A stretch of DNA of 29,633 nt from positions 1 to 29,633 of the IMG/VR virus record IMGVR_UViG_3300000117_000141. One strand, written 5' to 3'. Made by a program: the position numbers and the translations under genes. How positions within the stretch are numbered: the stretch's first letter is position 1; every line of letters begins with the position of its first letter. The DNA comes from a virus. This document shows, one piece after another, positions 807 to 22,566 of this stretch. Under the pieces are notes generated by a model. That model did no database searches and was not told where the DNA came from. It saw nothing but the letters and a program-made list of their open reading frames with translations.

Positions 807-1208
807 TTATTTTTTAACTTTGATGTATATAACTTCTTTAACTGCCGTGTCGATTCTTCGCAAACCTTCTTCATTAGTAACCATAATACAGTTCCTGTAA
901 GATTCCCAGTTTAATTGGAATTTAGTATCTAGCATTCCATTGTTATTATTCTTAATACATTCGTTAAGTGCGTTAATTGTATAAAGAGTATTTGTCTGTT
1001 TTTTTCTGTGAAGTGAAATGGTGTCCTGTATGATTTCTACATTATTGCTAGAGTCTATATTGTATGTGCACATTAAATCGTTTTTGTTTTCAATACTATT
1101 CAATATGAATATTTTGTTATAAAGTACGTCATATGTATCTACGATAGTATCAACGGTTTTTGTCAAAAATTTAGAAACAGTAAATGTACATAGTAATTGA
1201 GTTTTCAT
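807..1208 (-). CDS. Hypothetical protein (133 aa)
   Basis: Not recognised. 133 residues, soluble, with no signal peptide, membrane segment or metal motif. The N-terminal part is beta-like (LLCTFTVSKF) and the C-terminal part contains NCIMVTNEEGLRRIDTAVKE. Its ATG overlaps the stop of the PD-(D/E)XK-like gene by one base (TAATG), with GGGG about seven bases upstream, so the two are translationally coupled and may work together. A hundred bases of AT-rich spacer follow it, with no clear terminator. Confidence 0.7.
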   Translation of the reverse strand: MKTQLLCTFTVSKFLTKTVDTIVDTYDVLYNKIFILNSIENKNDLMCTYNIDSSNNVEIIQDTISLHRKKQTNTLYTINALNECIKNNNNGMLDTKFQLNWESYRNCIMVTNEEGLRRIDTAVKEVIYIKVKK

Positions 1209-2711: not shown

Positions 2712-3722
2712 TTATATGTCCAAAGGCCGCATATTGTGGTAGTCTCTTCCTATTTTGAGCTTTACCGGAAACACCATTAACTTTTTAATTTCTTCTAAAA
2801 TCTTCTTACCGTCATCAGAACTAATATCAAATACAAATGCATCATATATATAAAGAATCATTTTGCTAAACTTGCCATCAAGTAATTCATGCAAGTTTTT
2901 TATAACTTGAGAATTCATCTCTGTTTCATATGCCTGTATGTAATAGTTAAATAGCTTTTGAGGATTCATATCCTTAAAATTGCTTTTATAAAACCTACGC
3001 TTTAAATTTGGTGTTTCTATATAACCTTTACTATTATAAATATCCCACAACTTAAAAATAAAGTCATTTGTCTTTTTAAAATATTCTATGTGTAAAAATT
3101 CTTTTGGCACGCCACCATAAAGTATTTGAAAGCTTATTTTTTTAGAATCATTATACTGCTCGTCTGTAAGATTATCAGTATCAAAGTATAGCTTACCTAA
3201 ATATCTATGAAAGCTTCCTTCTATCTGCTCCATTCCTATCATCTTTGCAATAAGTCGTAAATGATATGCGTCATAATCAAACTCTGCAATAATACCACCT
3301 TGATGTCTACTTTTATATTTCATTCTAGTGCCATCATCTTTATTTAAAGCTGCATAGTTTATACCTTTGTGAGAATTTGCTGGCCTTCCTGTTGTTGTAA
3401 AAAGATTGTATTTTGTATATTCAAATCCATCTTCTGTCCACAAACCGTTTTGTTCAATTTTTCTAAAAGGAGCCACTATATTTTCATTATAATCACTAAT
3501 ATGTTTATCAGAAACATCAGGAATCGCATGCGAGAGAGTGTTTAAATAATCAATTTCTTCTTCTTTCTTACATTCAGGTATAATATCATATACATCATAT
3601 CTACCTCCGTAAAGCCTGTCATAGAAATTATAAATAGGAGTGTTTAGTTTTTCAACCTCTATTGCCTTATTATTTTTAAGGTAGTGTTTTATAGATATTT
3701 TATTGCGTAGTTCGTTTATCAC
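2712..3722 (-). CDS. Small family A DNA polymerase-like protein
   Basis: 336 residues carrying the family A polymerase palm and fingers motifs in order: TTTGRP (109-114); motif A FDYDAYHLR (148-156, Asp149 for Pol I Asp705, His154 for Glu710); motif B KKISFQILYG (194-203: Lys194, Phe198, Tyr202); NYYIQ (259-263) for the Asn/Gln pair; motif C YIYDAFVFD (291-299, Asp294 for Asp882, Ala295 for Glu883). Both catalytic aspartates are present, so polymerase activity is possible. There is no 3'-5' or 5'-3' exonuclease domain. KIEQNGL (88-94), which normally precedes the thumb, sits only about 15 residues before TTTGR, so most of the thumb seems absent. The start is GTG directly after an in-frame TAG; the ribosome binding site is weak. 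It lies among tail and accessory genes behind a class E element. The family call is firm; the role is unknown. Confidence 0.8.
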   Translation of the reverse strand: MINELRNKISIKHYLKNNKAIEVEKLNTPIYNFYDRLYGGRYDVYDIIPECKKEEEIDYLNTLSHAIPDVSDKHISDYNENIVAPFRKIEQNGLWTEDGFEYTKYNLFTTTGRPANSHKGINYAALNKDDGTRMKYKSRHQGGIIAEFDYDAYHLRLIAKMIGMEQIEGSFHRYLGKLYFDTDNLTDEQYNDSKKISFQILYGGVPKEFLHIEYFKKTNDFIFKLWDIYNSKGYIETPNLKRRFYKSNFKDMNPQKLFNYYIQAYETEMNSQVIKNLHELLDGKFSKMILYIYDAFVFDISSDDGKKILEEIKKLMVFPVKLKIGRDYHNMRPLDI

Positions 3723-3758: not shown

Positions 3759-4583
3759 TTATTCAGGTAAATCTATATCAGGTCTGTAATATGTATCTTC
3801 TTCGATGTCATATATGTATTTAGCACACCAGTAATTTTCTTTTACTTCTGCACCAAATTTTTCACACCATCCGTTTTCATGGAATATACAACCTGCACAG
3901 TTTTGTCTTATAGGTACAATTGGATTTGTTTGCACCAAGCCATTTCCTTCTTGATACGCTTTTGGAAGCACATCAGGTACTCTGTCACCTTCAGGATAAA
4001 ATCTATTTGAAAGTCTGTCTCTTTGTATACCTCTAACGTTTCTTGGCCAGTTCATATAATCAGTTGGCATTATAAAGTTTTTTATTTCTTTAATTTTTTC
4101 TGCAGCCTTTGCAATTTGCTGTTTATTATATGATATTGATTTTACAGAAGTTTTTAATTTTATTTCTACAATTTCAATATTTTTATGATAAGGCGTAGAG
4201 TCTTTTTTAAAATATTTATGCTGCTCTTTGTTTACTTCAACAATAGAATTTAGATTTAGTATCTCGCAAAAATATCTAGAGTACTCACCTTTTTCTTTTT
4301 CTTCATCTGTCAATCTATGCTTATAAGGTATAGGTTCAATAAAGTTTCTAGAATATTTAGGTTTTATTTCATCATACAGTATATTGTCTTTTGATGCCTC
4401 AAATTCATACAGCTTCATTTCTTTTTCTAGCTTAGGTGACATTTTTTCACCACCAAAAGGCTCTCCTGAATAAGATATAATAGGACCTATATATTCTGTA
4501 TATTGACCTTTTTCATTTCTTGTCATCCACTCACCACCTGTTGTAAAGCTTCTTTCAATATATTTGTCTTTATATATTCTCAT
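3759..4583 (-). CDS. Probable virion protein with C-terminal four-Cys cluster
   Basis: 274 residues. The C-terminal 50 contain NCAGC (Cys229, Cys232), then GWC (Cys240) and YWC (Cys253), a Cx2Cx7Cx12C arrangement with aromatic residues beside it, as in small iron-sulfur (HiPIP-like) or zinc modules. The N-terminal part has GGEWM, then YTEYIGPIISYSG, a Gly/Tyr-rich motif of a kind I associate with structural proteins of marine T4-like phages. The ATG overlaps the hub gene stop (ATGA), so it is translated with the hub. Position suggests a baseplate, spike-tip or hub-associated protein. The metal type and exact role are inference. Confidence 0.55.
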   Translation of the reverse strand: MRIYKDKYIERSFTTGGEWMTRNEKGQYTEYIGPIISYSGEPFGGEKMSPKLEKEMKLYEFEASKDNILYDEIKPKYSRNFIEPIPYKHRLTDEEKEKGEYSRYFCEILNLNSIVEVNKEQHKYFKKDSTPYHKNIEIVEIKLKTSVKSISYNKQQIAKAAEKIKEIKNFIMPTDYMNWPRNVRGIQRDRLSNRFYPEGDRVPDVLPKAYQEGNGLVQTNPIVPIRQNCAGCIFHENGWCEKFGAEVKENYWCAKYIYDIEEDTYYRPDIDLPE

Positions 4584-6595
4584 ATTCTTAGTGCCGTTTC
4601 AATCGTTGTTGTCCAATCTTTTTGAGAGACTGTATGTTTTATTTGGGTTGTTTGTAGCTTATATTCTACTCCTTCAAGAACAGGGCCTACCTGGTCAGCT
4701 TTAAATAACATACCCCAAGTCAGTCCTCCTATTCCATCAAATTCACCTTCGAATCCTATAGGTATTACAGTACCTCCTTGCTCAGGTGGTGGAGAGTTTC
4801 TATTAGCATAGTTTTTCAATGCACCTTTTGCTTCATCTACCGTCTCGTCATCTCTATCATCTGCAAGGTTTGCAAGTGCAGCCTTGTATGATTTTGAAGG
4901 ATTTGATGCTGGTGCACCTGCGTCTTTTTTAGGCTGGTCAGGTTTTGTACATTTTTCCTGAGCATTAGGTGTTTCATCTAACTCTTGTTTTTGGAGCATA
5001 TCATCTGTAACTCCTTTTGCATATATAAGCATTGAACCTTGAGGTTCATCTGTATTTTTAGGACCTGTCGATGATGCCTTTTGTGTTGCCATCATTATTG
5101 AGTGTCTTAGTGCTTGCGGTATGTTTGTTGACATTCCCCAGTTTCTTGCAGATGTATTACCATATATTTTTATTTCTGGTGCATCAACACTTGGTACATA
5201 ATTTACGTCAACAACTCTCATTGTTGATGGGTCATTTGGGTCGTCGACTAATTCTAAATTCCAAAAGTCACCACAAACTTCATTTACTGATTTTGCTACC
5301 TTCATAACATACTCATCGATTGTTTTGCAATCTAAATATGTCTGCCATAAAAAGTAAGTATTTAGTAAGACTCGACCTAGATACATTGTACCTTCAGGTG
5401 CACCGTCGCTAACTTTAGGTGCTGCTGTAATTCCTTCATCGTTTTTAAGTCCGCTTAACCAACCTGACTCATAGTCTCCTGCATTTCCATTATCCCAATG
5501 AAAAAATCCTGGCAACAAACATACCCACGGGTCTGATGAAGCATAAGGTTTTGATTTAGGTATTTTTAATATTGACTTACTACTATCTAGTCTCCATACG
5601 TGTTTCTTTCCCCAATTCTTAAGAGGTGTCTCATCAGATATAGAACCTAGATTTTTTACAGCATCGTGCTTTGGTGATATTGGAGACATGCCTGAAACAA
5701 TTGTTGATTCAAACCAATTCCATGTTACGTAATGGTTTGTACCTCTAGAAAAGAACTTCCCTATATTTCTTCTCCACCAACTAGCATCTTCTTTACCATC
5801 TTCAAACATGCTTAATGTACCACCTAAATAAACGCTTCCATCTTTCCACGGCTTATTTTCAGTCATGTTTTTTTCAGCAATGTCTTTAAGTGCAACTCTC
5901 ATCCAGTTACCACTACCATCACCTTTTTCTTCGTTATCTTTATTTTTACAGCCTGCGCCTTGTTTGTTTGCTACTGTAACAGGTCCACTAATATAAGCCT
6001 TTCCTGGTGAGTCTATAACAATTTCACATGAATATGATTTTGAACCTGGGTCGAATGACCAGTTAAAATCTGATATAACACCAAACATGGCATCCATACA
6101 ATTTTCCTGTTGCTCAATCCAATCGTTTATTTGTTTTTGTCCATCAAAGAAACTTTTAAATGTTTTTGATGGAAACCTTTTTACAGCAGAGCCATCACTA
6201 GACTTGATATTCCATCCCCATTGAACTAAGCATGATAGTCCTGGAATAAAATATGCCTTTTGTATTTTCTTTAATTGGTCTATTGAATAAGCGGTGAAAC
6301 TAACTGTAGCCTTTCTCATAGCTCCATTTGTTCCTGTAGTACTTATACTTACGCTATTGACAATGGGCTTAGGAACAATTCTACCTCCGCCATCTGAATT
6401 GTCATAAAAATCTTCAACAGTCCTTTTTTCAAATCCTGCTATTTTATATTTTTTACTTGAACCTGAGTTTAACTCTATCCACACCTTTTTAGAAACGTGC
6501 CAAGAAGTTGCTCTTCCTGCAGAACCTCTTCGGTTCATCTCAGAAATAAGCTTTGCAGGCATAGGCCTACCTGTTATGTAATTACTGTCTGCCAT
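4580..6595 (-). CDS. Baseplate hub protein, gp27-like
   Basis: 671 residues. I assign it to the tail hub (T4 gp27 / P2 gpD type) from position after the tape measure and the LysM-like protein and from two patterns: MFGVISDFNWSF followed by YSCEIVIDSPG (about 168-194), typical of the first hub beta-barrel, and a C-terminal end IKHTVSQKDWTTTIETALRI, typical of hub proteins. A low-complexity Lys/Asp/Pro stretch lies around 540-590 between domains. Hubs form a trimer at the centre of the baseplate, joining spike and tube. The ATG has only a weak AAG-type ribosome binding site and follows the previous stop by a few bases, so coupling is likely. It is longer than T4 gp27 (391 aa), so extra domains are present. 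Confidence 0.6.
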   Translation of the reverse strand: MADSNYITGRPMPAKLISEMNRRGSAGRATSWHVSKKVWIELNSGSSKKYKIAGFEKRTVEDFYDNSDGGGRIVPKPIVNSVSISTTGTNGAMRKATVSFTAYSIDQLKKIQKAYFIPGLSCLVQWGWNIKSSDGSAVKRFPSKTFKSFFDGQKQINDWIEQQENCMDAMFGVISDFNWSFDPGSKSYSCEIVIDSPGKAYISGPVTVANKQGAGCKNKDNEEKGDGSGNWMRVALKDIAEKNMTENKPWKDGSVYLGGTLSMFEDGKEDASWWRRNIGKFFSRGTNHYVTWNWFESTIVSGMSPISPKHDAVKNLGSISDETPLKNWGKKHVWRLDSSKSILKIPKSKPYASSDPWVCLLPGFFHWDNGNAGDYESGWLSGLKNDEGITAAPKVSDGAPEGTMYLGRVLLNTYFLWQTYLDCKTIDEYVMKVAKSVNEVCGDFWNLELVDDPNDPSTMRVVDVNYVPSVDAPEIKIYGNTSARNWGMSTNIPQALRHSIMMATQKASSTGPKNTDEPQGSMLIYAKGVTDDMLQKQELDETPNAQEKCTKPDQPKKDAGAPASNPSKSYKAALANLADDRDDETVDEAKGALKNYANRNSPPPEQGGTVIPIGFEGEFDGIGGLTWGMLFKADQVGPVLEGVEYKLQTTQIKHTVSQKDWTTTIETALRI

Positions 6596-6598
6596 ATC

Positions 6599-6979
6599 TT
6601 ATAACTTATATATTCGCTGCTGCAACATTTCATTATATTCAGCAATGATATCACCAACTCTATCAGGATTTGGTATGCGTATTCTTTGTCCTGGTGCAAT
6701 AAACATAGAACCTTTACCTATACCGCCTTCTTGTCTAGAAGTGATACCATATTGAGAAGCTCTATCAAGTTTATTGCCGTTTGCGATTATCCACCAAAGA
6801 GTGACATCACCATAATATTGATATGCCAAATTGTCAACTCTGTCTTCTGAAATAACATCTATGTATATATCAGTTTCGTGTCTTTCAATCTTAGGATATA
6901 TTATTGTTCCGTATACGCGCTTATTAGTTTTGTTAAACTTATCTGTAGTTTTTTGTTGATTTGGTTCATATCTTTTCAT
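6599..6979 (-). CDS. 53: LysM-like baseplate protein (gp53-like)
   Basis: 126 residues. Residues 46-105 read as a LysM-like module: EDRVDNLAYQYYGDVTLWWIIANGN, then a glycine-rich loop, then PGQRIRIP. The same pattern occurs in T4 gp53 and in the LysM baseplate proteins of P2 (gpX) and contractile injection systems, where the domain links hub/tube to the wedge. Position between the 684-aa tail protein and the hub agrees. It begins four bases after the upstream stop and is followed within a few bases by the hub gene. The T4 gp53 identity is by pattern; a P2 gpX-like inner-baseplate adaptor is the alternative. Confidence 0.65.
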   Translation of the reverse strand: MKRYEPNQQKTTDKFNKTNKRVYGTIIYPKIERHETDIYIDVISEDRVDNLAYQYYGDVTLWWIIANGNKLDRASQYGITSRQEGGIGKGSMFIAPGQRIRIPNPDRVGDIIAEYNEMLQQRIYKL

Positions 6980-22251: not shown

Positions 22252-22566
22252 CTACATTGCGCCATACTTAGTCATTGCTGTCCAAACATAGCCTTTTTCA
22301 ACTCTCTGAGATACTCGCTGTCTATAAGCCTCTTTTCTTTTGGCTTCATTCATAAGCTCTCTTTTCTTTGTTGTAGGTTTTATATACTCTTTCTTTGCTT
22401 TATATCTTAACATCTTATCTGAATCTTTAAGTTGTTTTTTAAGATACTTCATTGCTTTCTCTAAAGCAAATGGACTTGAGTCAGGTACCTTTACTCCTTC
22501 AGGACAGCCTGGTAAATAAAAGTCGTGTCTTGCAAGTCTTTTACGATTATTAAATCTTTTTTTCAT
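22252..22566 (-). CDS. rpsU: Ribosomal protein bS21 homologue
   Basis: 104 residues, very basic. Residues 25-80 match bS21: KVPDSSPFALEKAMKYLKK (compare the ENEPFDVALRRFKR region of E. coli S21), then RYKAKKEYIKPTTKKRE, which corresponds to the YEKPTTERKR signature. bS21 sits on the 30S subunit near the anti-Shine-Dalgarno and helps start translation. E. coli S21 has 71 residues; this one adds about 25 N-terminal and some C-terminal residues. S21 is known to be the most common ribosomal protein in phages. Start ATG has AAGGA three to four bases upstream. The gene is alone between two intrinsic terminators and behind a class E-like element, so it is made separately from the structural genes. 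Confidence 0.85.
   Translation of the reverse strand: MKKRFNNRKRLARHDFYLPGCPEGVKVPDSSPFALEKAMKYLKKQLKDSDKMLRYKAKKEYIKPTTKKRELMNEAKRKEAYRQRVSQRVEKGYVWTAMTKYGAM

Follow-up and report, generated by a model that had tools for sequence, protein, structure and literature searches.

What is a DNA polymerase of only 336 residues doing among the tail genes of a phage? The question is raised by an ORF on the minus strand at 2712-3722 of the window, which here means the whole 29,633-nucleotide stretch of viral DNA that was analysed. The first-pass annotation had described its product as a thumb-poor family A polymerase and had offered two explanations: part of a split replicative polymerase, or a special enzyme for repair, priming or end handling, perhaps acting with UvdE. 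The ORF proves to encode a member of divPolA1, a family described in 14 phages including immuto, whose gp001 is the founding member (Yutin et al. 2024, Virol J 21:200, PMC11348598). As published, divPolA1 has an active palm, a truncated thumb and an inactivated exonuclease domain, occurs besides regular PolA, PolB or PolC, and lies ahead of replication genes (PMC11348598). In the literature, the name was found only in this paper and its preprint.

Domain content of a reduced family A polymerase

The ORF begins with GTG; relatives L004, L005, L007, L008 and L010 start at this position too, but with ATG. Its 336-aa product matches Pfam DNA_pol_A (PF00476) at 5.3e-11 and 42.5 bits, reaching the curated family score (cut-off 34.3), and PHROG 17, DNA polymerase, at 1.2e-15. 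It is 34% identical to immuto gp001 (tblastn, E 5e-50, 94% coverage), and an alignment and tree that include immuto are concordant with this. A scan of IMG/VR returned at least 587 stretches encoding divPolA1 relatives. The dN/dS ratio against close relatives ranges from ∼0.03 (L003, with a 99% identical protein) up to ∼0.14, and the gene is thus maintained under purifying selection. Motifs A, B and C, both catalytic Asp residues, TTTGR and the Asn/Gln pair, all reported in the first-pass annotation, are indeed there and show little or no variation across 66-69 relatives. Judged from conserved residues, profile alignment and a structural model, the product is a family A polymerase reduced to a palm and shortened fingers, with neither a thumb nor proofreading.

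The proposed absence of the thumb is borne out by both alignment and model. A profile of 66 relatives aligned to Klenow leaves a single gap of ∼103 residues, exactly at the thumb. The gap starts just past Klenow IERNGVKID (KIEQNGLWT in the window) and stops just ahead of GRVHTSYHQAVTATGR (GFEYTKYNLFTTTGR in the window). The junction spans residues 93-105 (3408-3446, minus strand); it opens at the G in EQNGL and closes at the Y in YNLFTTTGR, and the ∼103 Klenow residues have no counterpart there. The interval from E90 to T111 is 21-22 residues long in the window's clade and many relatives, and 31-41 in other relatives. An AlphaFold2 model (mean pLDDT 92.5, pTM 0.88) overlays on Klentaq (3po4_A, VIA-align 2) with a Z of 25.4 and an rmsd of 2.7 angstrom over 303 residues, model residues 1-333 falling on chain residues 346-832. 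A thumb concealed in residues 1-105 was ruled out: residues 1-92 form helices matching the pre-thumb segment of Klentaq, and the profile gap lies at the thumb. From Klenow, loss of the thumb is expected to weaken DNA binding and processivity.

Nor was an exonuclease domain recognised, in line with the earlier claim: a Pfam scan of the 336-aa ORF gave no exonuclease match. Once entries cut by contig ends are excluded, divPolA1 lengths are bimodal, at 332-344 aa in the window's clade and 417-465 aa otherwise, with Mel-JY01 sitting between at 408 aa. The short forms, that of the window among them, group as one clade, with support of 99/89 and recovery in 98% of bootstrap trees; on this tree, which has no outgroup root, the initial stretch of the exonuclease remnant was probably lost once. 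The N-terminus of this clade is ∼90-110 residues shorter and the model alignment begins at Klentaq residue 346; by alignment and model, the stretch that would hold the first exonuclease motifs seems to be missing, not mutated. Compared with the published description, in which the 3′-5′ exonuclease domain is inactivated, the window's clade appears to have gone one step further, with the N-terminal part lost. An RNase_T-type proofreading exonuclease had no match in the fragments G003, G006, G007 and G008.

A rebuilt nucleotide site

Residue conservation was counted over 69 non-redundant divPolA1 members. Arg113 (Pol I R668), Asp149 (D705), Lys194 (K758), Phe198 (F762), Tyr202 (Y766), Gln263 (Q849) and Asp294 (D882) are invariant, and Asn259 (N845) is kept in 68 of the 69. 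On the minus strand, the alignment places motif A (DYDAYH, with catalytic Asp149 at 3276-3278) at 3261-3278, motif B at 3117-3155, the Asn259/Gln263 pair at 2934-2948 and motif C (YDAFVFD, which holds catalytic Asp294 and an invariant Asp299) at 2826-2846; the TTTGR motif, conserved in divPolA1 relatives, occupies residues 109-113.

Three departures from the canonical site are fixed. His154 (3261-3263) stands at the steric-gate position of Glu710 in every member (69/69), so the Glu-to-His change noticed earlier in motif A is real. Tyr190 replaces Arg754 in motif B (67/69), and Tyr293 replaces His881 in motif C (69/69). Seven canonical phage PolAs used for comparison have Glu, Arg and His at these positions, and the steric-gate His is absent from them. 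In Pol I, Glu710 is the steric gate, Arg754 contacts the triphosphate and His881 makes a minor-groove contact. We infer from these replacements that the substrate choice of divPolA1 may be changed; with the dNTP site altered family-wide, either activity or substrate may differ. The word 'steric' is absent from the main text of PMC11348598.

The first-pass annotation had also drawn attention to Ala295, in place of the second acid of motif C. The replacement is real, other members having Ser or Gly, but it is nothing special, as several canonical phage PolAs have HDS. With Ser at this position in those enzymes, the Ala is uninformative, and it was ruled out as a mark of inactivity.

Neighbours, linked p133 and coexisting polymerases

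The gene order around the polymerase is baseplate, divPolA1, p133, SSB, UvsX, 5′-exonuclease, DnaB. Among loci with enough sequence, the upstream side holds a gp033-like baseplate gene in 46 of 46 and a gp034-like gene in 45 of 46. In the window, PHROG matches and locus comparison place the end of the baseplate module, a 671-aa immuto gp033-like protein and a 126-aa baseplate wedge protein, ahead of divPolA1 (4580-6979, minus strand). Downstream, SSB and UvsX each occur in 52 of 53 loci, the 5′-exonuclease in 44 of 53 and DnaB in 39 of 53, the last two counts being limited by flank length. The window itself stops within UvdE, and the near-identical L003 has SSB and UvsX downstream of divPolA1. 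The description of the gene as lying among tail genes therefore holds for its upstream, baseplate side, but not for its downstream side, which in relatives is a replication and recombination block of SSB, UvsX, 5′-exonuclease and DnaB. Two divPolA1 loci, L148 and L149, come from contigs binned as Winogradskyella and Rickettsiaceae; the phage gene order is the same there, which suggests phage contigs within those bins.

Other minus-strand ORFs surround the polymerase in the window. Upstream, a 274-aa ORF (3759-4583; Pfam scan, locus comparison) was ruled out as a missing polymerase exon, since it is also present beside the longer relatives. Towards its C-terminus, a Cys pattern (CAGCIFHENGWCEKF...WCAKY) could, judged by eye, be a metal or Fe-S site, with no family match. 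A 488-aa ORF (1208-2674; 678 aa in G003) lies between divPolA1 and p133 in the window's clade and is variable, not being found in most of the divPolA1 family. By eye, its stretch VPKADLAF...FFISYKHG might be PD-(D/E)XK-like; no family matched. A 114-aa protein (360-704) is kept in 16 of 53 loci by locus comparison. At 1-301, an ORF named by sequence resemblance as a UvdE-like UV-damage endonuclease is cut by the window start, and a full copy lies at 35541-36557 of G003. The proposed link to UvdE is thus real as a neighbourhood, but UvdE-like genes occur in only 13 of 53 loci and so cannot explain the whole divPolA1 family. A single hand-picked short motif, CNCCTATCTA, which precedes both divPolA1 and the next ORF, was tried as the shared promoter-like element; its count in the window is not above chance. 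Elsewhere, between structural genes, a 104-aa protein (22252-22566, minus strand) weakly resembles ribosomal protein S21 (PF01165, 5.9e-5, 23.1 bits, below the cut-off of 27).

A constant neighbour is p133 (807-1208, minus strand), an orphan 133-aa protein with the signature HRKKxTNTLYTINALN. It accompanies divPolA1 in 53 of 53 testable loci, and in the reverse direction divPolA1 accompanies p133 in all 26 loci with 4.5 kb of upstream sequence. Some of the loci are near-duplicates, and a linkage can persist through common descent alone, so this is suggestive of joint function rather than proof. Its invariant residues include H67, R68, Y76, N79, N82 and W101. The Pfam, PHROG and NCBIfam libraries gave no family and nothing reliable for p133. 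Its model has a pLDDT of 93.9; the best PDB match (Z 6.2 over approximately the first 63 residues) covers an ACT/ferredoxin-like half only and gives no usable assignment, and among viral proteins it strongly matches only an uncharacterised one from Caudovirales. By its linkage, p133 would be the first candidate for a partner that supplies DNA grip to divPolA1, possibly through direct contact.

The window record gives no view of its own replicative polymerase because it is a 30.6-kb fragment, and coexisting polymerases were therefore sought in relatives. A family C polymerase of 1117-1118 aa is present in the closest long relatives, G003 and G008, with a piece of one in G006. Within the window's exonuclease-less clade, G013 has its family C polymerase spread over two frames (447 + 750 codons, 113366-114467, in the record of L090) and G019 a family B polymerase, which is also found in G012 and G014-G018. 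Besides divPolA1, Mel-JY01 carries a family B polymerase, and immuto encodes another enzyme of family A that is a full polymerase (778 aa). Since relatives have a full polymerase from family A, B or C, divPolA1 is an extra enzyme, not the replicase. On the gene content of these relatives, the phage genome is probably copied by another polymerase, which in the closest long relatives of the window belongs to family C. A single record, LR756508.1 (W03, a 484-kb phage), combines three polymerase families, as divPolA1 occurs there with a family C match and with a family B polymerase that spans two ORFs. The polymerase coordinates are 47415-48068, 241318-242268 and 260623-266900, and L019 corresponds to 221318-262268 of the record.

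Candidate roles and known systems

We favour, with roughly even confidence, a role for divPolA1 as an accessory enzyme, extra to the replicative polymerase, that fills gaps or synthesises DNA in connection with recombination. The special accessory polymerase proposed earlier fits the coexistence of full polymerases in relatives. Such an enzyme would work beside SSB, UvsX and the 5′-exonuclease and make short, distributive, non-proofread patches of DNA. It could fill gaps after the 5′-exonuclease takes off primers or flaps or, alternatively, extend recombination intermediates made by UvsX. Partners would provide the DNA grip in place of the lost thumb, p133 being the first to consider. In a bolder form, to which we give little credence, divPolA1 and p133 would be an obligate two-protein polymerase, with p133 replacing the grip of the thumb and the remodelled site (His steric gate, Tyr for Arg754) giving an unusual substrate choice. 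If true, T4-related environmental phages would widely carry a minimal family A holoenzyme of a new kind.

The main rival, in our view unlikely, is a catalytically dead scaffold or regulator whose polymerase fold is kept for binding protein or DNA in the replisome. The lost thumb, the constant linkage to p133 and the replacement of the steric-gate Glu, the triphosphate-contacting Arg and the minor-groove His would all suit it. However, both catalytic Asp residues and the motif B Lys, Phe and Tyr are invariant in 69 of 69 members, and a role in binding alone would not need them; together with strong purifying selection, this makes a dead remnant unlikely. A split replicase is far less probable still. 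Rhodothermus phage RM378, a distant T4-type relative, has a family A polymerase in parts, and a short ORF near replication genes and without an exonuclease recalls that arrangement. The first of the two earlier explanations is nevertheless largely refuted by the separate full A, B or C polymerases in relatives, by the two thumb flanks joined in one ORF, and by the neighbouring ORFs, among which a Pfam scan found no exonuclease or polymerase family match.

Two further readings retain catalysis and change its purpose. Gap filling as the partner of UvdE in UV-damage excision repair draws on the position of UvdE, four genes downstream of divPolA1 in the window's clade, and on the 5′-exonuclease in the same block; with the patchy occurrence of UvdE set against the almost constant order of divPolA1, p133, SSB and UvsX, we regard it as improbable. 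Somewhat less so, though still doubtful, is a polymerase with a changed sugar choice that adds ribonucleotides or modified nucleotides and serves as a maker of primers, tags or RNA. This would explain a steric-gate His that is universal here and absent from the seven canonical phage PolAs, and an RNA polymerase role has been raised for a separate group, divPolA2 (Yutin et al. 2024, PMC11348598). Yet the His side chain is still bulky and may exclude a 2′-OH, and priming is already covered by a DnaG-like primase, which the immuto annotation lists and of which G007 encodes a homologue (weak DNAG_N match).

The divPolA1 family is already published, its prior record comprising 14 genomes with no biochemistry found in the literature; the additions here are a sub-clade with still further reduction and p133, an orphan protein that accompanies divPolA1 in every testable locus, along with the abundance of the family in IMG/VR and a nucleotide site rebuilt in a fixed way. 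If active, divPolA1 would show how little of a family A polymerase suffices, and would provide a small enzyme whose sugar choice may be changed. Like published divPolA1, it keeps the palm residues, has a truncated thumb and the same neighbourhood, and has regular PolA, PolB or PolC in its relatives; unlike the 417-465 aa forms, its 332-344 aa clade appears to have lost the inactive exonuclease domain's N-terminal part. Its palm and most of its fingers superpose on those of Klenow and Klentaq, representing bacterial DNA polymerase I, but ∼103 thumb residues are gone, His, Tyr and Tyr stand at the E710, R754 and H881 positions, and there is neither a 5′-nuclease nor an active proofreading domain. 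It also differs from the split enzyme of RM378, in that relatives of the window phage have a full replicative polymerase elsewhere and divPolA1 is not half of one. A further comparison is divPolA2 of barbaviruses, by published description also a thumbless family A palm beside a regular polymerase, but one that has an N-terminal globular domain to itself and whose neighbourhood varies (PMC11348598).
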